Of a stretch of DNA of 36,423 bases, positions 6,872-26,945 are shown in pieces. The stretch is from positions 1-36,423 of the forward strand of contig NZ_FOIN01000025.1 in assembly GCF_900102365.1 (NCBI RefSeq). Reading direction: 5' to 3'. The DNA comes from Thomasclavelia cocleata (GTDB lineage: Bacteria; Bacillota_I; Bacilli_A; Erysipelotrichales; Coprobacillaceae). Made by a program: the position numbers and the translations under genes. Under the pieces are notes generated by a model. That model saw only the letters and a list, made by a program, of their open reading frames with translations. It did not search any database and was not told where the DNA came from. Within the stretch, counting starts at the first letter, position 1. Every line of letters starts with the position of its first letter.

Positions 6872-7570
6872 ATGCAAGAATTATTAAGAATAAATAATGT
6901 GAGTAAAAAATATGGACATTTTAAAGCTTTAGACAATGTTTCTTTAAACTTACAAGCTGGTAGAATAATTGGATTACTAGGGCCTAATGGTTCTGGGAAA
7001 ACAACACTAATTAAAATAATTAATGGTTTATTGAAAGAGTATGATGGACAAATTCAAGTAAATGGTGAAAAGATTGGTGAAAGTTCAAGAAAAATTATTT
7101 CTTATTTACCAGATGAGAATTATTTTCAAGATTGGATGTATGTTAGAGATGTTCTAGAAATTTTTAGTGATTTATACAGTGATTTTGATAGTGAGAATTG
7201 TTTATCATTAATGAATCGTTTTAAATTAGATAAAAATATGAAGATTAAAACAATGTCAAAGGGAATGAAAGAAAAGTTTCAATTATGTTTAGTAATGTCA
7301 CGAAAAGCTAAAATATATATTCTAGATGAACCAATTGCAGGAGTTGATCCAGTAGCTAGAGAAGTCATTTTAGATGTGATATTAAACAATTATGAAGAAG
7401 GTTCTTTGGTGCTGATTTCTACTCATTTAATTAGTGATTTAGAAACAATTTTTGATGAAGTGATCTTTTTAAAAGAGGGGAAAGTTGTACTGCATAAGGA
7501 AACAGAAGAATTAAGAATTGAAAGAAAACAATCAATAGATGAAGCTTTTAGGGAGGTATTTAGATGCTAA
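6872..7570 (+). CDS. ABC transporter ATP-binding protein (YtrB/BcrA-like)
   Basis: A 232-residue cytoplasmic ATPase that powers the membrane partner encoded next. Walker A is GPNGSGKTT (37-45), the signature is the degenerate MSKGMKEKF, Walker B is YILDEP, and the switch histidine lies in STHLISD. The LSGGQ-to-MSKGM change is common in YtrB/GldA-type antibiotic-resistance exporters. AAGGAGGAG lies just before the ATG; the open frame extends upstream through the promoter and is not used. The gene overlaps the permease gene by 7 bases, so the two are translationally coupled. The substrate is unknown; peptide antibiotics or envelope stress are likely by family. Confidence 0.9.
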   Translation: MQELLRINNVSKKYGHFKALDNVSLNLQAGRIIGLLGPNGSGKTTLIKIINGLLKEYDGQIQVNGEKIGESSRKIISYLPDENYFQDWMYVRDVLEIFSDLYSDFDSENCLSLMNRFKLDKNMKIKTMSKGMKEKFQLCLVMSRKAKIYILDEPIAGVDPVAREVILDVILNNYEEGSLVLISTHLISDLETIFDEVIFLKEGKVVLHKETEELRIERKQSIDEAFREVFRC

Positions 7571-13447: not shown

Positions 13448-13475
13448 GCAGATTAAAAATATCTGCTTATTTGTT
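13443..13475 (+). terminator. Intercistronic terminator/attenuator before the Sel1-repeat gene
   Basis: An 11-base-pair stem AATAAGCAGAT/ATCTGCTTATT (13443-13453 with 13461-13471), with T-rich tail TTTGTTT. The TAA stop is inside. Only about 20 bases separate it from the next start codon and no promoter fits there, so the Sel1 gene probably depends on read-through. Confidence 0.7.
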
Positions 13476-13494
13476 TATAGATAAGGAGCTAATT

Positions 13495-15717
13495 ATGGAT
13501 ATTATAGACCGAATAAAAAGTTATGAGCCTTTGTTTGACTGGTGGCTCTTTGATGATTTGATAAGTATCTTTGATCAAGAGAGTTTAATAAAGGTTAAAC
13601 ATCTTTCATATGGAAATGAAAAATATGCATTTGTAAAAGTTGTTACAGTGTATGATCAGGATAATAATTTAAAATATTTAGAAAAAAGAATTCAGGATAT
13701 AAAAAGTCATTTAAATCTTAATCAAGGTTATATAGAAGATGAGTTTGTAGAAGATGAGCAATACTTGATTGAAAATAATCAAGGAGAAGTAATAGGGATT
13801 GATTTATGTTTATTAATGGAAGAAGATACATATAAAGTAGATGATCTTGATGATTTAAGTGGTAAATTATTATATGAATTAGGGTTAAAGTTATTTGATA
13901 AACATGAGTATGATGAAGCATTAAGGTATTTTAAAAAAGGTGAAGTTGTAAATAATAGTGATTGTATATGTATTATTGGTTATTTGTATGAAAGAGGATT
14001 GGGAGTAGAGCGGGATTATGTTAAAGCAGCATATTATTATCAAAAGGCTACAAGTTTAAATAATATAGTTGCAAGCTGTAATTTAGCTTATTTTTATGAG
14101 TTGGGTATTGGTATAGAGCAAGATTATCAAAAAGCTTATGAACTATATTTAAAAGGAGCAGAAACAGGATTTCCAAGAGCTATTTGTAATCTTGGTTATT
14201 GTTATGAATATGGTCGAGGGGTTAAGGCAGATTTAAAACAGGCAGTAGAGTATTATCTCGAAGCTGCAAGACTAGGATATAGTGAAGCTTTGTATAGTTT
14301 AGGAACTTGTCTTGAATTTGGTGAGGGAATTGAAAAGGATATTGAAAGGGCTTTTAAATGTTATGAGGAAGCTGCGAATCAGGGACATGAACGTTCACAA
14401 TATCGATTAGGGTATTGTTATGAAAATGGATTAGGAACATTACAGGACTTTGTTAAAGCATTTTATTGGTATGAACGGGCAAGTAAAAATAATTATCCAC
14501 CAGCACTAGTATCTTTAGCTACTTGTTATGAGTTGGGACAAGGTACAATTGAGGATTTAAAAATGGCCCGAAGTTATTATAAAAAGGCAGCTCATTTGGG
14601 CTATGTTAGAGCGCAATTTTGGCTTGGATATTTTTATGAAACACATTTAGAGATCAAGAATGCTGCTTATCGCTGTAGTTATTGGTATCGTAAAGCTAGT
14701 AAACAAAATGATGTTCAAGCAATTGTGGCATTAGGGTATTGTTATGAAAGTGGTTTTGGAGTAAAGCGGGATTTAAAGCGAGCAGTTGAATTATATCTTA
14801 GAGCAGCGAAATTAAATTATCCTGCTGCTCAATGTAATTTGGCTTATTGTTATGAAATGGGGATTGGAACAAAACCAGATATAAAGCAGGCAATTCACTA
14901 TTATTGTTTAGCTAGTAAAGCTGGTTATCCAAGAGCTATGTGTAATTTAGGTTATCTTTATGATCATGGTGAAGGTGTGAAAATTAATCATCAGAAGGCT
15001 TTTGATTTATATATGCAGGCAGCAAAAGTAAACTATGCTCCAGGCTTGTATCATGTAGGATTAGCATATGAAGAAGGTAAGGGAAATGAAGTAAATATTG
15101 ATAAAGCGATTACTTTTTATAAACGAGCTGCAAATTTAAATTATGCTATGGCAATGTATAATCTAGGCTTGATTTATGAACAAAATGAGGATTACCATGA
15201 TGATTTAAAAGCTATTTCATATTATGAAATGGCTATTGATCAAAATGATATTCGAGCAATGTATCGAATGGCTTTATATTTAGATGAAGGAAAAGTCATT
15301 GCAAAAGATGTTCAAAAGGCTTTTACATATTTACAGATCTCTGCCAATAAAGAATATGCTCCAGCAATGAATATGTATGGTATATATCTTGAAGATGGGA
15401 TAAGTGATTATAAAGATTCTCAAGAAGCATTTAGATATTTTTTAAAAGCATCAAATCAGGGATATGTTCCAGGAATCTATAATTTAGGTCGTTGTTATTT
15501 TTATGGTATAGGTACTGATGTAAATAAGCAGGAGGCTTTTGAATTGTTTTGTAAAGCCAGTGCGATGAAGTATCGTGAAGCGTGTTTTATGGTGGGGTAT
15601 ATGTATTGTTATGGTGATGGTATTGAAAAGGATATCCAAAAGGCAAAAGAATATTATCAAGAATCTGCTGATCTAGGTTTCCAGGATGCTATAAAAGAAT
15701 TAGAAAAGTTAAAATAA
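13495..15717 (+). CDS. Large Sel1-like repeat (SLR) protein
   Basis: A 740-residue protein without signal peptide or membrane segment, so cytoplasmic. An N-terminal region of about 120 residues has no recognised domain. From about residue 130 to the end it consists of about 16 tandem Sel1-like repeats of some 36 residues. These are variants of 'A-x-x-x-Y-x-x-A-A-x-x-G-x-x-x-A-x-x-x-L-G-Y-C-Y-E-x-G-x-G'. One repeat (WLGYFYETHLEIKN) is irregular. SLR solenoids serve as protein-binding scaffolds, so a regulatory or assembly role is likely, but the partner is unknown. The repeated LGYCYE element makes the protein cysteine-rich. AAGGAG precedes the ATG at 13495; a start 24 bases upstream lies in the hairpin. 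Confidence 0.9.
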   Translation: MDIIDRIKSYEPLFDWWLFDDLISIFDQESLIKVKHLSYGNEKYAFVKVVTVYDQDNNLKYLEKRIQDIKSHLNLNQGYIEDEFVEDEQYLIENNQGEVIGIDLCLLMEEDTYKVDDLDDLSGKLLYELGLKLFDKHEYDEALRYFKKGEVVNNSDCICIIGYLYERGLGVERDYVKAAYYYQKATSLNNIVASCNLAYFYELGIGIEQDYQKAYELYLKGAETGFPRAICNLGYCYEYGRGVKADLKQAVEYYLEAARLGYSEALYSLGTCLEFGEGIEKDIERAFKCYEEAANQGHERSQYRLGYCYENGLGTLQDFVKAFYWYERASKNNYPPALVSLATCYELGQGTIEDLKMARSYYKKAAHLGYVRAQFWLGYFYETHLEIKNAAYRCSYWYRKASKQNDVQAIVALGYCYESGFGVKRDLKRAVELYLRAAKLNYPAAQCNLAYCYEMGIGTKPDIKQAIHYYCLASKAGYPRAMCNLGYLYDHGEGVKINHQKAFDLYMQAAKVNYAPGLYHVGLAYEEGKGNEVNIDKAITFYKRAANLNYAMAMYNLGLIYEQNEDYHDDLKAISYYEMAIDQNDIRAMYRMALYLDEGKVIAKDVQKAFTYLQISANKEYAPAMNMYGIYLEDGISDYKDSQEAFRYFLKASNQGYVPGIYNLGRCYFYGIGTDVNKQEAFELFCKASAMKYREACFMVGYMYCYGDGIEKDIQKAKEYYQESADLGFQDAIKELEKLK

Positions 15718-19340: not shown

Positions 19341-19373
19341 ATTTATTTTAAAAGATTGTAATGAAATAGTTAA

Positions 19374-19422
19374 GCTAAAAAAGATAATGATTCAGTATAA
19401 CTGAAACATTGTCTTTTTTAGC
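19374..19422. terminator. Terminator of prfC
   Basis: A 16-base-pair outer stem (19374-19389 with 19407-19422, GCTAAAAAAGAT.../...TCTTTTTTAGC, one G-U pair) plus an inner TTCAG/CTGAA stem. Poly-A on the left and poly-T on the right allow it to work in both directions. Confidence 0.85.
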
Positions 19423-19849
19423 ATGGTTAGATTATTGAAACATCATTTACATATCTTATTGTAATTCAAATATTTATATTAATGGATATTGTGGATTTGT
19501 TGTTTTTTTAAGATGATAATAGTATATAAAATTATAATATTTAATGTCAAAATGAAACTGTTTTTCAATATTAGTGAGAATATTATTTTAATAAATATAG
19601 GGAGGTATTTTAATTTTATAAAGCTGGTTATATAGTTTGATATCATATGGGTATAATAGTAATAAAAATGTTAAAAAGTAAAAAAGTTCAATTCAAAGGT
19701 ATTGCTGTTAGTTTTGAATAAATAAAACTGAATGAAGTAAACTTAATTTAAAACTTATGTTGTTACAGTTTTTTAGATATAATAGTTTATTTAAAAGATT
19801 TTATAGGATTTAGAAATGATGCGAATTAATACTTTTATTTTATTTGTCG

Positions 19850-19858
19850 TGTTATAAT
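19850..19858 (+). promoter_or_regulatory. Extended -10 promoter of the 80-aa/GNAT/pseudo-ATPase operon
   Basis: TGTTATAAT, the same nonamer as at 1405 and 4825. The predicted start near 19865 is only about 8-17 bases from the coding start. Confidence 0.6.
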
Positions 19859-19872
19859 GAAAATGAAAAGAG

Positions 19873-20115
19873 GTGATTACTATTGCAAATGTAGGGAGAC
19901 GACATATTTGTCGTTGTATTAAAACAATGAATATAGTTATTGGTAAAGAGCAACGTGATTTATTTACTAAAGGACATATTTATGATTGTGTGATTAGGGA
20001 TAGTGGTCATCTTCAAGTCTATTATAAGATTTATGGTAATGAATTTGATTTATCTTGTACTAAAGAGGAATTTGAAGAAAGTTTTGTCTTAATTAAAAGG
20101 AAGGGGATGAGATGA
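19873..20115 (+). CDS. Small protein of unknown function (about 77-80 residues)
   Basis: A small basic protein rich in beta-forming residues (RRHICRCIKTMNIVIG, FTKGHIYDCVIRD, LQVYYKIYGNEFDL, then an acidic helix KEEFEESFVLIKR). I do not recognise a family; the pattern could be a small beta-barrel. It has no membrane segment. The start is unclear: GTG at 19873 has only AAAAG before it. AGAGGTGA is placed ideally, 5 bases before an in-frame ATT at 19882, and the first in-frame ATG (19927) has no ribosome binding site. The gene overlaps the GNAT gene by 4 bases, which supports that it is expressed. Confidence 0.6.
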   Translation: MITIANVGRRHICRCIKTMNIVIGKEQRDLFTKGHIYDCVIRDSGHLQVYYKIYGNEFDLSCTKEEFEESFVLIKRKGMR

Positions 20116-20639
20116 TGGAGTTTAAGGATTTAGATTTGAAAGAATTTGATGATTTTTATAAAGTTATTTTGGATAATTTTCCATCAAAGGAAATTAAAGA
20201 ATATAATTATATGAAAGATACTTTTATAATGGGAGCTTATAAAGTATTGATTTTAAAAGAAGATAATAGAATAAATGGTATTTTATCATATTATGATGGT
20301 GGTGAATTTACTTTTATTGATTATTTTGCTATAAATGGCAATCAAAAAGGTAAAGGACTTGGAAGTAAAATGTTGAAATATTTTTTAAAAATGATTGATA
20401 AACAAGTGATTTTAGAAGTTGAGTATCCTGAAGATGATCAAAGTAAAAGACGAATTGTTTTTTATCAAAAAAATGGTCTTGTTTTAAATGATCACTATAA
20501 CTATTATGTTCCCCCAGTACGTAATTTAAAACATCCTTTATATTTTCATTTAATGTCATATCCAAAAGTAATTTCAGAAGATAACTATAAAATCTTTTAT
20601 CCTAAAATTTTAAATCTTGTATATGGAGTAGATTTATAG
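20112..20639 (+). CDS. GNAT-family N-acetyltransferase
   Basis: A 175-residue cytoplasmic protein with a GNAT core. Motif A is GNQKGKGLGSKML (the acetyl-CoA pyrophosphate loop, Q-x-x-G-x-G-L/M type), followed by strand VILEVEYPED and the helix RRIVFYQKNGLVL typical of motif B. The last 45 residues (YYVPPVRNLKHPLYFHLMSYPK) resemble those of small uncharacterised acetyltransferases in gut Bacillota. The substrate is unknown. It starts in an ATGATG overlap with the upstream 80-residue gene. The P-type ATPase-like gene follows 58 bases later. Confidence 0.82.
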   Translation: MMEFKDLDLKEFDDFYKVILDNFPSKEIKEYNYMKDTFIMGAYKVLILKEDNRINGILSYYDGGEFTFIDYFAINGNQKGKGLGSKMLKYFLKMIDKQVILEVEYPEDDQSKRRIVFYQKNGLVLNDHYNYYVPPVRNLKHPLYFHLMSYPKVISEDNYKIFYPKILNLVYGVDL

Positions 20640-20697
20640 ATTTGGAATTTTTTTATAGATATGATAAAATAAATAAATGATTAGAAAGGAGATTGCT

Positions 20698-22647
20698 ATG
20701 GCCCGTAATTTCTATATTGATAATATAAATGATATTAATAAATTAAATGAAATAAGTATATTATTAAATGGTATGGAAGAAGTATCAAGAATTAAAATAA
20801 GTAAAACAGAGATATCATTTTATTGTGAACATCCAGAAAATGTTCATGAGGTTTTAAAAGAGTGTTATCCTGAACTAGTATTGAAAGAAGAAATAAATTC
20901 ACGTAAAAGAGAGTTTATAGCACCAGAAAATAAAACAGAATATATTTTTATGTTTACTAATTTAGAAACAGAAGAGGAAGCTAAAGAAATTGAGGAAGTT
21001 ATTTCACGCTATTCTGCTTATGAAAATGTTAGTCTTGATTTTACCAATAAGTTATTAAAAGTTACTACAAGTCAAAAAAATATTTTAGTAAGATTGAATC
21101 GTTTAGTTGATAAGGTTAATCCTAATATAGATGTGGAACAATGGAAAAAACCATTTAAATCACAAGACTTATTTCAAGAAAAATATTTAAAGACAATGTC
21201 AAAATTAGCTATTTTATTTGTTGCACTTGCTTTAGGATTGGTAACAAGAAATGATCCTAGTATAGTTACAAATATTGCCTGGTTAGTAGCGATAATTATT
21301 TTTAATGAGACGATTTTACGACGAGCATATAGAGATTTAAAAGTTAAGCATTATATTAGTGAAAATATTACAATTAATATTGCATGTTTATTTGGTTGGG
21401 TTTATGGTGCGTATGTTGAAACATTAGTGGTTTCTTTGATTTTTCAATTAAGTGAACGTTTTCAAATGTATCTAATCAATTTAACGATGGAAAAAATAAA
21501 TAATGAAATCAGTCCTGTTCAATTAGGAAGACGAGAAATTAAGAAAAATGAATATGAAATGGTATCACTTGAGGATATAGATATTGGTGATATTATTGTT
21601 ATTATGCCAGGAGAAACTATTCCATTAGGAGGAAAAGTTGTTTCTGGGACAAGTGATTTAGATATGTTTGCTATTAATGGTAGTGATATTTTAGATAAGG
21701 TTAATGAAGGGTCAGAAGTACAAAGTGGTAGCGTCAATGTTAGTGAGATGCTGAAAATAGAGGTTTTATATACATATGATCATAGTGCGATGAATAAAGT
21801 TTTAGAAATTGCAATGATGGCACCAGTGAATTCATCACGAACTCATAAATTAGTAGAACTAATTTCTAAGGTTTATACAGTTGTTCTAGTTGTTGCGGGG
21901 GTTGTATGTGCAACAATAGTACCATTTATTAATATTGAAACTAATTTTAAATATGTTTATTTAGGTGCTATTTTATTGACGATTTCGGGATCTTTTGCTT
22001 ATAAACAGGTTTCATCGTTTGCGATCTTATCGGGGGTTGCTAAGGCATTTTCTAAAATTATTGTAATAAAAGAAAATAGTGGTTTAGATGCTTTGAATTT
22101 ATGTCATACGATAATTTATGATCGTTTTGATGGTGTAGAAGTAACTGAAGAGGAGATGGAGTTGTTTTCTAAATTATCAAGAATTAATCGAGATCTAATT
22201 ATTTATAATGATGGGCCTGTTGATTTAGAAAATGATCAGTATCAGATTTATAATAATTTATCTGTAAAGAAAAAATTAGAGATTATGGAAGAAGCTAGTG
22301 TTGCTGGGCCAGTAGCTTATATTGGAGATAATTCAAAAGATATTGCTTTATTGCAAAAGGCTTATGTAGGAATTAGTAGAGGTGGTATAAAAGATAAAAA
22401 AGTTATTGAAAATAGTGATATCATGTTAATGAATTCAAATTTAAATACAGTAATGGAAACATTTATGATTTCTAAAAAACAAAAAGATGTTACGTTTGAA
22501 AATATTTTTATGAGTTTATTTATTAATGTTATTATGATGCTTGTTGCAATAAGTGGTATATTGCCATGGTGGGTAGCTTTAGTAATTTATTTGTTAGAAG
22601 TAGTAATTGTGTTATTAAATACACATCGAATCATTGATATGAAATAA
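20698..22647 (+). CDS. Degenerate heavy-metal P-type ATPase-like membrane protein, probably catalytically dead
   Basis: A 649-residue intact reading frame with P1B-ATPase layout: two HMA-like N-terminal modules (about 3-70 and 80-155) without CxxC, then about seven or eight membrane segments with an actuator-like domain (GRREIKKNEYEMVSLEDIDIG ... IMPGETIPLGGKV). The key motifs are replaced. TGE reads INGSD (326-330). The CPC helix motif reads SGSFAY (430-435). DKTGT reads YDRFDG (474-479, D475 kept). GDGxND reads GDNSKD (543-548). Only about 68 residues separate D475 from G543, versus some 200 in active pumps, so the ATP-binding N-domain is essentially absent. AAAGGAG lies 6 bases before the ATG. 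Likely a non-pumping paralogue; role unknown. Confidence 0.85.
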   Translation: MARNFYIDNINDINKLNEISILLNGMEEVSRIKISKTEISFYCEHPENVHEVLKECYPELVLKEEINSRKREFIAPENKTEYIFMFTNLETEEEAKEIEEVISRYSAYENVSLDFTNKLLKVTTSQKNILVRLNRLVDKVNPNIDVEQWKKPFKSQDLFQEKYLKTMSKLAILFVALALGLVTRNDPSIVTNIAWLVAIIIFNETILRRAYRDLKVKHYISENITINIACLFGWVYGAYVETLVVSLIFQLSERFQMYLINLTMEKINNEISPVQLGRREIKKNEYEMVSLEDIDIGDIIVIMPGETIPLGGKVVSGTSDLDMFAINGSDILDKVNEGSEVQSGSVNVSEMLKIEVLYTYDHSAMNKVLEIAMMAPVNSSRTHKLVELISKVYTVVLVVAGVVCATIVPFINIETNFKYVYLGAILLTISGSFAYKQVSSFAILSGVAKAFSKIIVIKENSGLDALNLCHTIIYDRFDGVEVTEEEMELFSKLSRINRDLIIYNDGPVDLENDQYQIYNNLSVKKKLEIMEEASVAGPVAYIGDNSKDIALLQKAYVGISRGGIKDKKVIENSDIMLMNSNLNTVMETFMISKKQKDVTFENIFMSLFINVIMMLVAISGILPWWVALVIYLLEVVIVLLNTHRIIDMK

Positions 22648-22673
22648 AGTCGGTTGATATAAACTGACTTTTT
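22646..22673 (+). terminator. Terminator after the ATPase-like gene
   Basis: Stem AAAGTCGGTT/AACTGACTTT (22646-22655 with 22662-22671, one G-U pair), loop GATATA, T-run to 22673. It starts at the last two bases of the stop codon. Confidence 0.8.
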
Positions 22674-22974
22674 ATTAAAGGAAGAGATTATTTAAAGAGA
22701 TGGGAATAATTGAGATTTATGCTGTAGATTATCTATATGGATAATTGAATAATTAAAGATTTAGAAATTGTTTTTTGGTAATAAATAAGCCATTGGAAAA
22801 TGATGATAATATAAACATAGAACAATTATTAGAGGGGCAATATCGTTTATTGTTTATCATGTTTTAAAAAGAGAGGTAACAGTAATTAATGATGTTTGTT
22901 TATGGCTACTAATTTAGAGAATAATATGATTGGGTGTTAAGGGTTAGCAATGGAAGTAAAGGCGGAGAAAGTAA
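22648..22974. other. 327-base spacer with a possible gene relic
   Basis: Apart from the terminator at its left end no functional element is clear. The frame 22766-22867 reads INKPLENDDNINIEQLLEG and then QYRLLFI. Shifting frame at about 22858 continues HVLKREVTVINDVCLWLLI to 22917. This looks like a frameshifted gene fragment without a start. No promoter stands out for the RluA gene that follows. Confidence 0.35.
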
Positions 22975-23811
22975 ATGAATAAATATCTAGTAAAGAAAGA
23001 TATTTTATTAATGGAGTTTTTATTAAATTTTTATAGTAAAAAAAATGTGAAAAATTTATTAAAGTATAAACAAGTAAAGGTAAATGGTAGAGTTGTAAGT
23101 CAGTTTAATTATCAGTTGAATAAGGGTGATCAAGTTATGATTGATAAGAGTGAAATTAATGAAACTGATTTGAAAATTATTTATGAAGATAAAGAATTGA
23201 TTGTTATTAATAAGCCTTCTGGATTGTTAAGTGTTTCTGGAGGTGGTGAAAAAGAAAAAACAGCATATCATATGGTTTCAAAGTATTTAAAAGCAAAGAA
23301 TAAAAATGCTAAGATATTTGTAGTGCATCGTTTAGATAAGGATACTTCTGGAGTGTTGATGTTTGCTAAAAATGAAGTGATAAAAATTAAACTTCAAAAT
23401 AATTGGAATACAATTGTATCTAAACGAGGTTATTTAGCTATTGTTGAAGGAAAGCTAAGGAAAAAGCATGGGACAATAAAGAATTATTTAGCAGAGAGTA
23501 AAACTCAGATGGTTTATATAACTAATAATAAGGGTAAATTAGCAATTACTAATTATAAAGTATTAAAAGAATCGTCTGATAATTCATTAGTTGAAGTATT
23601 TTTGGATACGGGTCGTAAAAATCAAATTAGGGTACATATGCAATCGTTAGGACATAGCATTGTTGGAGATAAAAAATATGGTGCTGTAACTAATCCAATA
23701 AAAAGAATGGGTTTACATTGTCATATTTTTGCATTTGTTCATCCAGATACAAAAGCTAAATATGAATTTGAAGCACCAGTTCCAGAAGAATTTAATAAGA
23801 TATTTAAATGA
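22975..23811 (+). CDS. RluA-family pseudouridine synthase (second copy)
   Basis: A 278-residue enzyme that isomerises uridine in structured RNA, most likely rRNA. It has an N-terminal S4-like segment (LLKYKQVKVNGRVVSQFNYQL) and the RluA catalytic motif VVHRLDKDTSGVLMFAK with D121, followed by TGRKNQIRVHMQSLGHSIVGD. It belongs to the RluC/RluD group but differs clearly from the copy at 10990, so the two probably modify different sites. GGCGGAG lies before the ATG. It is transcribed toward infC, with no strong terminator seen before the infC promoter. Confidence 0.9.
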   Translation: MNKYLVKKDILLMEFLLNFYSKKNVKNLLKYKQVKVNGRVVSQFNYQLNKGDQVMIDKSEINETDLKIIYEDKELIVINKPSGLLSVSGGGEKEKTAYHMVSKYLKAKNKNAKIFVVHRLDKDTSGVLMFAKNEVIKIKLQNNWNTIVSKRGYLAIVEGKLRKKHGTIKNYLAESKTQMVYITNNKGKLAITNYKVLKESSDNSLVEVFLDTGRKNQIRVHMQSLGHSIVGDKKYGAVTNPIKRMGLHCHIFAFVHPDTKAKYEFEAPVPEEFNKIFK

Positions 23812-24133: not shown

Positions 24134-24146
24134 GGAGGTGGCTTTT

Positions 24147-24686
24147 ATTAGCAGATTTGATAACAGAAAACCAAAACAACCAGATGAGTTAGTAAACGAA
24201 AAGATTCGTTTTAAAGAAGTCTTGGTAATTGATCAAAATGGTGATCAGTTAGGAGTGAAAACTCGCAATCAGGCAATAGATATTGCTTATAAAGAGGGAC
24301 TTGATTTAGTGTGTGTTGCACCAAATGCAAAACCGCCAGTATGTCGAATTATGGACTTTGGTAAGTATCGTTTTGAGCAACAAAAGAAAGCTAAAGAAAT
24401 GAAACGAAATTCTAAAGTTGTTGCATTAAAAGAAACGCAATTATCTGTAACTATTGATGTTCATGATAAAAATGTTAAATTGAAGAGAACATTAAAATGG
24501 TTAGAAGAAGGTAATAAGGTTAAAGTAGCTATTAGATTTAGAGGACGTCAATTAGCTCATATGGATCTTGGTAAAAAAGTTATTGATGACTTCGTGGCTG
24601 AATGTGCTGAAGTTGGACAAATTGAAAAACCAGCTAAGCTTGAAGGTAGAACTTTAACTGCAATAATTGCACCAAAGAAAAAATAA
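24147..24686 (+). CDS. infC: Translation initiation factor IF-3, ATT start
   Basis: A 179-residue factor that binds the 30S subunit, blocks 50S joining and checks the start codon and initiator tRNA. Conserved segments: VNEKIRFKEVLVIDQNGDQLG, LVCVAPNAKPPVCRIMDFGK, FEQQKKAKEMK, and the C-terminal domain from VKVAIRFRGRQLAH to EGRTL. GGAGGTG (24134-24140) lies 6 bases before an in-frame ATT, the rare start codon used by infC in E. coli and Bacillus for self-control by IF-3. An ATG 15 bases upstream coincides with the ribosome binding site and is rejected. First gene of the operon, behind the leader. Confidence 0.93.
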   Translation: MSRFDNRKPKQPDELVNEKIRFKEVLVIDQNGDQLGVKTRNQAIDIAYKEGLDLVCVAPNAKPPVCRIMDFGKYRFEQQKKAKEMKRNSKVVALKETQLSVTIDVHDKNVKLKRTLKWLEEGNKVKVAIRFRGRQLAHMDLGKKVIDDFVAECAEVGQIEKPAKLEGRTLTAIIAPKKK

Positions 24687-25560: not shown

Positions 25561-26748
25561 TTATCTTAAAAGTGCAGGATCAAACTTTTGATTAGTGCTT
25601 AATAGATGATAAATGATTCTAAGTAGTTTTCTTACACAATGACCTTGAGCACAACGATGTCCTTTACCTTGAGAAATCTTTAATTCATAATATTGTTTAA
25701 ATATAGGATTATGATTGATTACAGGCAATATGATTTGATATAAGGTCTTTCTTAGATATTTTGATCCTTTCTTAGTGATAGAGGTATGTTGTGCAGTAAA
25801 TTGACTGGATTCATAGTGTAGAGGTGCTACTCCTGCAAATTTTATGATCTGAGAAGGCTTTTTATAGTTGCTTATATCTCCTAATTCGGCTAAAATAGAA
25901 GTACCAGAGAAATGAGAAATTCCTGGTATGGATAGGATAGGAGAGTTGTTTTTCACGGAGAACTCTTCTATTTTTTTATCTGTCTCAGCAATTTGCTTAT
26001 TGATAAGTTCTATTTGATTGACCAAGTGCTTGATTTGAATAATCTCAGCTGTAGAAGAAATACCAATAGAAGATTTAGCACATTCTTTTAACTGTTCAGG
26101 TGTTAAAGCGATGCGTTTTCCTCTGCCGTTGATATCAAAACATTTGCGAATGGTTCTGATATCTGTATTAGCGATATCTTCAGCACTGCCAAATGTTTTG
26201 AGAAGATTCATATAGACAGTGCCATATTTAGATTTGAATAATCTGTTAAACTCAGGGAATACGATATCAATACATTTCTGTAGGCGATTTGTATAAACAT
26301 TAAGTTCTTCCTTTAGATTATGATGATGTCTGGTCAATTGTTTTTGTTCATAAAAATCGAAGCTGTTGACTTTCGTAATGCGATATTGTTTCTTGCGTTC
26401 AGGAGTATCAAGAACATCGCAAATGGTTAAAGTATCGAGCTTATCATTTTTGGTAATCCCACCTTGCATTTTACGAGTAAAATCAGTGGTCTTAGGGTTA
26501 ATCAAAGCAACAGTAAAAGCATTACTTAAAAGAAACTTTAATAAAGCAAAATGATAATGCCCAGTATCCTCCATACCTATTAAAATAGAGTTTTTAGAAA
26601 ATGGTTTAAGTTTATTGATAAGAAAGTCAAAGCCTTCTTTATTATTAGAAAAAGAAACAGGGTCGACTAAAAGTTCACCAGTATCTTTATCCATGACACA
26701 AAAGAAGTGATTATTCTTACCGATATCAATACCAACTAAATAATTCAT
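25561..26748 (-). CDS. IS110-family DEDD transposase/recombinase
   Basis: A 395-residue transposase. The N-terminal RuvC-like DEDD domain begins LVGIDIGKNNHFF, with the acidic residues visible in GIDIG, GMEDTG and TKNDKLDT. A middle coiled region follows. The C-terminal Tnp20 domain has SIPGISHFSGTSILAELGDI and KFAGVAPLHYESSQF, which includes the serine region used for strand attack. No frameshift is seen, so it is probably active. The ATG at 26748 begins MNYLVGID and is preceded by AAAGGA; the frame continues 75 bases upstream in the non-coding end. IS110 enzymes work with an element-encoded bridge RNA. Confidence 0.93.
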   Translation of the reverse strand: MNYLVGIDIGKNNHFFCVMDKDTGELLVDPVSFSNNKEGFDFLINKLKPFSKNSILIGMEDTGHYHFALLKFLLSNAFTVALINPKTTDFTRKMQGGITKNDKLDTLTICDVLDTPERKKQYRITKVNSFDFYEQKQLTRHHHNLKEELNVYTNRLQKCIDIVFPEFNRLFKSKYGTVYMNLLKTFGSAEDIANTDIRTIRKCFDINGRGKRIALTPEQLKECAKSSIGISSTAEIIQIKHLVNQIELINKQIAETDKKIEEFSVKNNSPILSIPGISHFSGTSILAELGDISNYKKPSQIIKFAGVAPLHYESSQFTAQHTSITKKGSKYLRKTLYQIILPVINHNPIFKQYYELKISQGKGHRCAQGHCVRKLLRIIYHLLSTNQKFDPALLR

Positions 26749-26945
26749 AAAACAGTATCCTTTCTTTATGTAGATAATGTGAAAATGGTATCCACAACGT
26801 TTAGACCACAAAACCTGGTTCAAAATAGGAATTCAAGACTCATCTAACTCATCATTGTTTAGGAATAAGGTGTGGTAAGAACCTCCAAAAAGTAGTCAAG
26901 CCACAGGGAGAAAAATACAAATCCACATTCACAATATTCAATTTT
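26749..26945 (-). ncRNA. Candidate bridge-RNA region of the IS110 element
   Basis: The 197 non-coding bases ahead of the transposase on its own strand are where IS110-subgroup elements encode the bridge RNA that pairs with target and donor DNA. On the minus strand TGTGG (26905-26901) and CCACA (26875-26871) can close a 25-base internal loop, the expected shape of a target-binding loop. A second segment containing TGGT and ACCA (about 26812-26786) could form the donor loop. Folding was done by eye only. Confidence 0.35.
26933..26945 (-). repeat. Right inverted repeat of the IS110 element
   Basis: AATATTCAATTTT, the exact reverse complement of 25477-25489. Confidence 0.65.

Follow-up and report, generated by a model that had tools for sequence, protein, structure and literature searches.

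A conserved descendant of the P1B-type ATPases without an N-domain, and its candidate four-cysteine partner, in the Coprobacillaceae

Is a P-type ATPase gene that has lost the signature motifs of a pump on its way to decay, or does it encode a protein with another job? The question is raised by a frame of Thomasclavelia cocleata (Coprobacillaceae) at positions 20698..22647 (forward strand) of the window, the whole stretch of 36,423 nucleotides of DNA analysed here. Its 649-residue product, a descendant of the P1B ATPases without an N-domain, is called the pseudo-pump below. A preliminary description had taken it for an intact frame of P1B architecture, and the open frame, a PF00122 match and a P1B-like structure model bear this out. 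The good ribosome binding site and own terminator also claimed there are present, as AAAGGAG and as a rho-independent hairpin directly after the stop codon (22646..22671, forward strand; −11.2 kcal/mol, z −5.6); an alternative ATG start is possible at 20677. PF00122 (E1-E2 ATPase) is the only Pfam domain found in the protein (E=5.9e-21; 75.2 bits against a cut-off of 28.1), and the top NCBIfam match, TIGR01525, scores 169 bits, under the heavy-metal ATPase cut-off of 346.

Secondary structure in the model indicates two HMA-like βαββαβ modules at the N-terminus (residues 1–73 and 80–150; 20698..21147, forward strand), in which a count of cysteines reveals no CxxC. The A-domain (residues 276–373; 21523..21816, forward strand), located by the structure model and by alignment, has NGS (residues 327–329) in place of TGE. 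The P-domain, without an N-domain (residues 455–580; 22060..22437, forward strand), is defined by its invariant residues, by its match to the CopA P-domain fold and by comparison with canonical pumps, and carries the motifs YDRFDG (D475), NDGP (504–507), K526, GDNSKD (D544, K547, D548) and GISRGG. Alignment with the canonical pumps of relatives gives the replacements TGE to NGS, CPC to GSF, DKTGT to DRFDG, TGD to DGP and GDGIND to GDNSKD, in agreement with the motif losses and the CxxC-free HMA-like modules reported earlier. The position of the TGE glutamate is occupied by Ser, Thr or Asn in nearly all of 29 pseudo-pump sequences; the metal site of M4, GSF in T. cocleata, has other non-cysteine residues in its relatives, and the CPC, M5 lysine and M6 aspartate of the ZntA path are all lost. 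The N-domain insertion is missing entirely, D475 and D544 being 69 residues apart compared with ∼186–193 in the closest canonical relatives, and a P1B N-domain query against the T. cocleata genome matched only two complete CPC pumps. Because there is no N-domain in cis, none was found in trans, and both TGE and CPC are absent, pumping by the ordinary cycle is very unlikely.

The AlphaFold2 model of the pseudo-pump (mean pLDDT 81, pTM 0.60) contains the two HMA-like modules, the A-domain, the P-domain and the helices of the eight-helix P1B core, and matches the P1B structure 7r0g with a Z-score of 27.6. The modelled P-domain superimposes on the CopA P/N-domain chain 3a1e with Z 17.8 and an rmsd of 2.5 Å over 140 residues. 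It shows the features of the HAD-superfamily P-domains, namely a Rossmann-like fold, an aspartate nucleophile, the lysine and GDxxxD. Thus the shortened P-domain of the preliminary description was correct as regards the absent N-domain, which accounts for the 69-residue gap, but the P-domain itself is predicted to be complete, the N-domain alone being missing.

Each of the nine Thomasclavelia genomes, and 32 of the 43 from the family as a whole, has a single orthologue without stop codons, with identities of 33–85%. A homologue search had been proposed as a check on whether the losses are shared, and the motif losses and the missing N-domain are indeed common to all 28 aligned, full-length orthologues. 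In a phylogenetic tree all 31 pseudo-pumps form one clade with support 0.99, subject to the caveats of midpoint rooting and a long branch. In one set of Thomasclavelia pairs dN/dS is 0.04–0.15, and in three comparisons of the pseudo-pump with its neighbour rluA the paired values are 0.114/0.109, 0.134/0.134 and 0.227/0.201. The pseudo-pump is therefore not decaying, since open orthologues persist in 32 genomes with dN/dS far below 1, and the conclusion that it is under purifying selection equal to that on rluA is well supported; the earlier judgement that the gene shows no recent decay holds on both counts. A homologue with intact DKTGT or N-domain, which would have told against the earlier reading, was sought at the same locus and not found: in sister genera that lack the pseudo-pump, no P-type ATPase lies between prfC and rluA. 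When N-domain-less relatives were sought with a P-domain profile in 382 genomes of the phylum, strong matches over the full length were confined to the family. Of the candidates from other families, four whose matches were long and unbroken were read in sequence and proved to be canonical DKTGT/CPC pumps; the others were judged by match range.

Conservation is very unevenly distributed over the protein. Invariant residues make up 37 of 126 positions in the P-domain and 28 of 523 elsewhere (p=9e-13 over 28 orthologues, whose columns are not phylogenetically independent). The invariant share in the pseudo-pump clade is 3% for the A-domain, 3% for M3-M4 and 21% for the P-domain, whereas in the controls, functional P1B pumps from the same order and class, it is 11%, 25% and 23% respectively. 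Judged against these controls, constraint has been relaxed in the ion path and in the A-domain but not in the P-domain. Within the pseudo-pump, conservation is lowest in the membrane helices.

Within the P-domain, all 29 sequences compared retain D475, K526, D544 and D548, which correspond in pumps to the phosphorylated aspartate, the conserved lysine and the pair of aspartates at the Mg2+ site. Around them, equally invariant, are changes that set the family apart: Lys to Arg476 and Gly to Asp478 beside the aspartate, Thr to Asp505 and Asp to Pro507 in TGD, and Asn to Lys547 in GDGxND. The threonine that follows DK in pumps is replaced by Phe in 27 of the 29 sequences and by Asp in none, giving a family signature of YDRxDx...NDGP...K...GDxxKD. 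Since the aspartate, the lysine and both motif-IV aspartates are invariant, the site has been rewritten, not erased. The term “motif-stripped” thus stands for the replaced motifs but fails for these four retained residues, and for the P-domain as the most constrained part of the protein. Owing to the new acidic residues, the site would be less apt to bind phosphate and more apt to bind a divalent cation or a different ligand.

Pseudo-pumps reduced still further occur in two other genera (L104:3508-5292 and L142:1936-3732, both on the reverse strand). The homologue in genome G014 has its P-domain largely deleted, and that in genome G016, situated right after prfC, has lost the motif-IV signature. 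An intact P-domain is thus not indispensable to every member, and these two either have no need of it or have drifted to another role.

The pseudo-pump does not stand alone. A gene for a 77-residue protein with an invariant CxC...C...C pattern lies at 19882..20115 (forward strand), beginning with ATT at 19882, its Shine-Dalgarno sequence overlapping a GTG at 19873. None of the four cysteines varies among 21 sequences. This partner gene is found in 32 of 32 genomes that have the 649-residue pseudo-pump, nearly always just upstream of it; in genome G023 both genes are at contig ends and adjacency is unreadable. It also adjoins the P-domain-less homologue in G014. Genome G026 has a partner with all four cysteines (L126 near 7012-7260, reverse strand) and no detectable pseudo-pump, in genome G016 (69% complete) there is a pump homologue but no match to the partner, and eight genomes have neither pump nor partner. 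Thus, of the ten family genomes lacking both the 649-residue and the G014 type of pump, eight are without the partner. Because adjacency of genes is inherited, these genomes do not test the link independently. The partner evolves with dN/dS of 0.08–0.13. Neither NCBIfam nor the PDB gave a sequence match to it, nothing in Pfam scored over the cut-off, and in the phylum sample outside the family a single weak, partial match was found (E=2.9e-4 over 37 positions). Its model (pLDDT 82) is a small β-barrel with weak similarity to SH3 domains (Z 5.4) and to FeoA (Z 4.5), the Foldseek E-values being above 0.1. What is new here is an undescribed four-cysteine protein coupled by neighbourhood to the pseudo-pump, as a pair not found outside the family.

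The start codon of the partner is itself unusual, being ATG or GTG at 16 of 31 loci and ATT or ATC at the other 15, with a Shine-Dalgarno-like sequence a few bases before it at the same spacing for both codon classes. In genome G033 a TGA lies three codons 5′ of the partner's ATC, which rules out an in-frame start at ATG, GTG or TTG farther upstream. The infC gene in the window likewise has an apparent ATT start (24147) after GGAGGTG. These near-cognate start sites can be seen at window positions 19870-19884 and 24134-24149 and at L080 near 6774; gene callers limited to ATG, GTG and TTG misplace the starts of both the partner and infC on account of such codons. The only E. coli genes with an AUU start are reported to be infC and pcnB, and IF3 discriminates against the AUU start of its own gene (PMC9410913). 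One could imagine a clade-specific, two-protein membrane signalling module, in which a non-enzymatic receptor with an allosteric ligand switch in its P-domain acts with a four-cysteine sensor. The AUU or AUC start of this sensor in many members perhaps makes it sensitive to the level of IF3 or the fidelity of initiation, so that metal or redox state would be coupled to translation; we regard this extension as improbable.

Between the partner gene and the pseudo-pump is a GNAT acetyltransferase gene (20112..20639, forward strand; PF00583, E=1e-6) that overlaps the partner's stop codon; it occurs in most Thomasclavelia loci examined, with dN/dS of 0.25–0.34, and is probably not essential to the system since it is not found in all genera. 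The locus genes prfC, rluA, infC and rplT give no metal-specific hint, and no regulatory RNA in the window was matched in Rfam. Directly downstream of the pseudo-pump (22700-22980) is a ybjQ remnant (PF01906, “putative heavy-metal-binding”) with frameshifts and stops, ∼70% identical in DNA to the intact L041:8005-8307; ybjQ is intact at the same position in several sister species, and its broken state here shows that unneeded genes at this locus do decay. About 530 AT-rich bases with no recognised gene separate prfC from the four-cysteine gene (19341-19870), a gap of ∼60–150 bases in sister species. By sequence reading, a transposase resembling the IS110 type lies just after rplT (25561-26823, reverse strand), and a 748-residue protein with many Sel1-like repeats is encoded at 13471-15717. 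The latter is ∼37% identical to its counterpart at the same locus in Faecalibacillus, compared with 60–86% for its neighbours, and is therefore fast-evolving.

That the pseudo-pump does not pump and is kept by selection is well supported, and a new function other than pumping is probable. In the best explanation that we can offer, which as a whole stands about evenly between right and wrong, a single ancestral P1B-type ATPase in the Coprobacillaceae would have shed its N-domain, TGE glutamate and CPC site and been kept as an ATP-independent membrane regulator. The pocket of its P-domain (D475, D478, D505, D544, D548, K526 and K547) would no longer undergo a phosphorylation cycle and would bind some small ligand, perhaps a divalent cation. 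Such binding would move the A-domain and the membrane helices, and the readout of this shift may be shared with the four-cysteine protein, probably a metal carrier or a sensor of thiol redox state. A membrane sensor or regulator of this kind, with the P-domain as its ligand switch and the four-cysteine protein as its soluble partner, is the reading that we favour. Against it weigh the degraded or deleted P-domains of the G016 and G014 homologues and the exceptions to the partner link in G026 and G016.

Three other roles are less probable, and are given in descending order. The first, which we consider unlikely, is that of a scaffold or modulator that assembles with a canonical P1B pump and tunes it, the four-cysteine protein being a metal chaperone in the style of PacL1 and CtpC. 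The two canonical CPC pumps in the same genome, the P1B layout retained by the helices and A-domain, and the precedent of small proteins encoded alongside a P-type ATPase (PMC9374683) are consistent with it. The pseudo-pump gene, however, is unlinked to any pump gene, and conservation has collapsed in the ion path and A-domain but not in the P-domain. Family members that lack the pseudo-pump have canonical P1B pumps just the same, so presence and absence give no support to the regulation of a true pump.

A little less likely again is a membrane-anchored, capless HAD phosphatase or phosphotransferase acting on protein or lipid, or a D475 phosphorylated by a small donor as in receiver domains. 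The invariance of the catalytic set D475, K526, D544 and D548 would fit such an enzyme, as would the large substrates on which HADs without a cap often act; against this, two residues beyond the nucleophile 27 of 29 sequences have Phe and none has Asp, and the motif-II threonine has become an invariant aspartate that should repel phosphate. More doubtful still is a passive carrier or channel, whose membrane helices would let an ion or a metabolite through with no need of ATP. The eight-helix layout is retained, as are E222 and E241 (M1/M2 region), equivalent to conserved pump glutamates, in 28 of 29 sequences, but the CPC, M5 lysine and M6 aspartate of the ZntA path are gone and the helices are where conservation is lowest. 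Finally, a decaying pump pseudogene, as the lost signature motifs alone might suggest, is refuted by conservation and has next to no chance, the same losses being found in open frames of 32 genomes at low dN/dS, next to a broken ybjQ that shows what decay looks like locally.

We rate the pseudo-pump as a descendant of the P-type ATPases whose job has changed and which no family model names. Pseudoenzymes are well studied among kinases; for the P-type ATPases, FUPA families included, we found no description in the open-access literature searched of a conserved N-domain-less or pseudo form, and an earlier account in a subscription paper is possible. The family presents a natural series, from a full P-domain to a degraded one (G016) to one largely deleted (G014), in which one could ask what part of a P-type ATPase repays keeping after pumping ends. 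The four-cysteine partner offers a point of entry for tests, and the bacteria concerned are common in the gut. Annotation based on profiles could call the pseudo-pump a heavy-metal ATPase, inflating counts of metal-resistance genes.

Comparison with known systems places both proteins. PacL1-CtpC of Mycobacterium tuberculosis offers the same arrangement of a small protein of metal-binding type adjoining a P1B-derived membrane protein (PMC9374683). CtpC, however, is a working zinc pump, and PacL1 has a transmembrane segment and Glu/Ala repeats, unlike the partner described here, which is modelled as a soluble four-cysteine β-barrel and for which we claim no homology. FeoA, the SH3-like partner of FeoB, is also a small β-barrel encoded 5′ of a transporter-like membrane protein, but the fold match to the four-cysteine protein is weak (Z 4.5) and the protein partner here, the pseudo-pump, is not a GTPase. 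To our knowledge, four invariant cysteines are not a feature of FeoA. The capless (C0) HAD phosphatases share with the pseudo-pump the retained Asp, Lys and Asp-Asp set in a P-domain without cap or N-domain, and differ in that it has DRFDG for the motif I DxDx[TV] and Asp for the motif-II Thr. The P1B ATPases (ZntA/CadA, CopA) have the same HMA-A-P order, eight helices and A- and P-domain folds. Compared with them the pseudo-pump is without N-domain, TGE and CPC, has DRFDG for DKTGT and K for N in GDGxND, and falls below the NCBIfam cut-offs, but the profile and fold matches make common descent clear.
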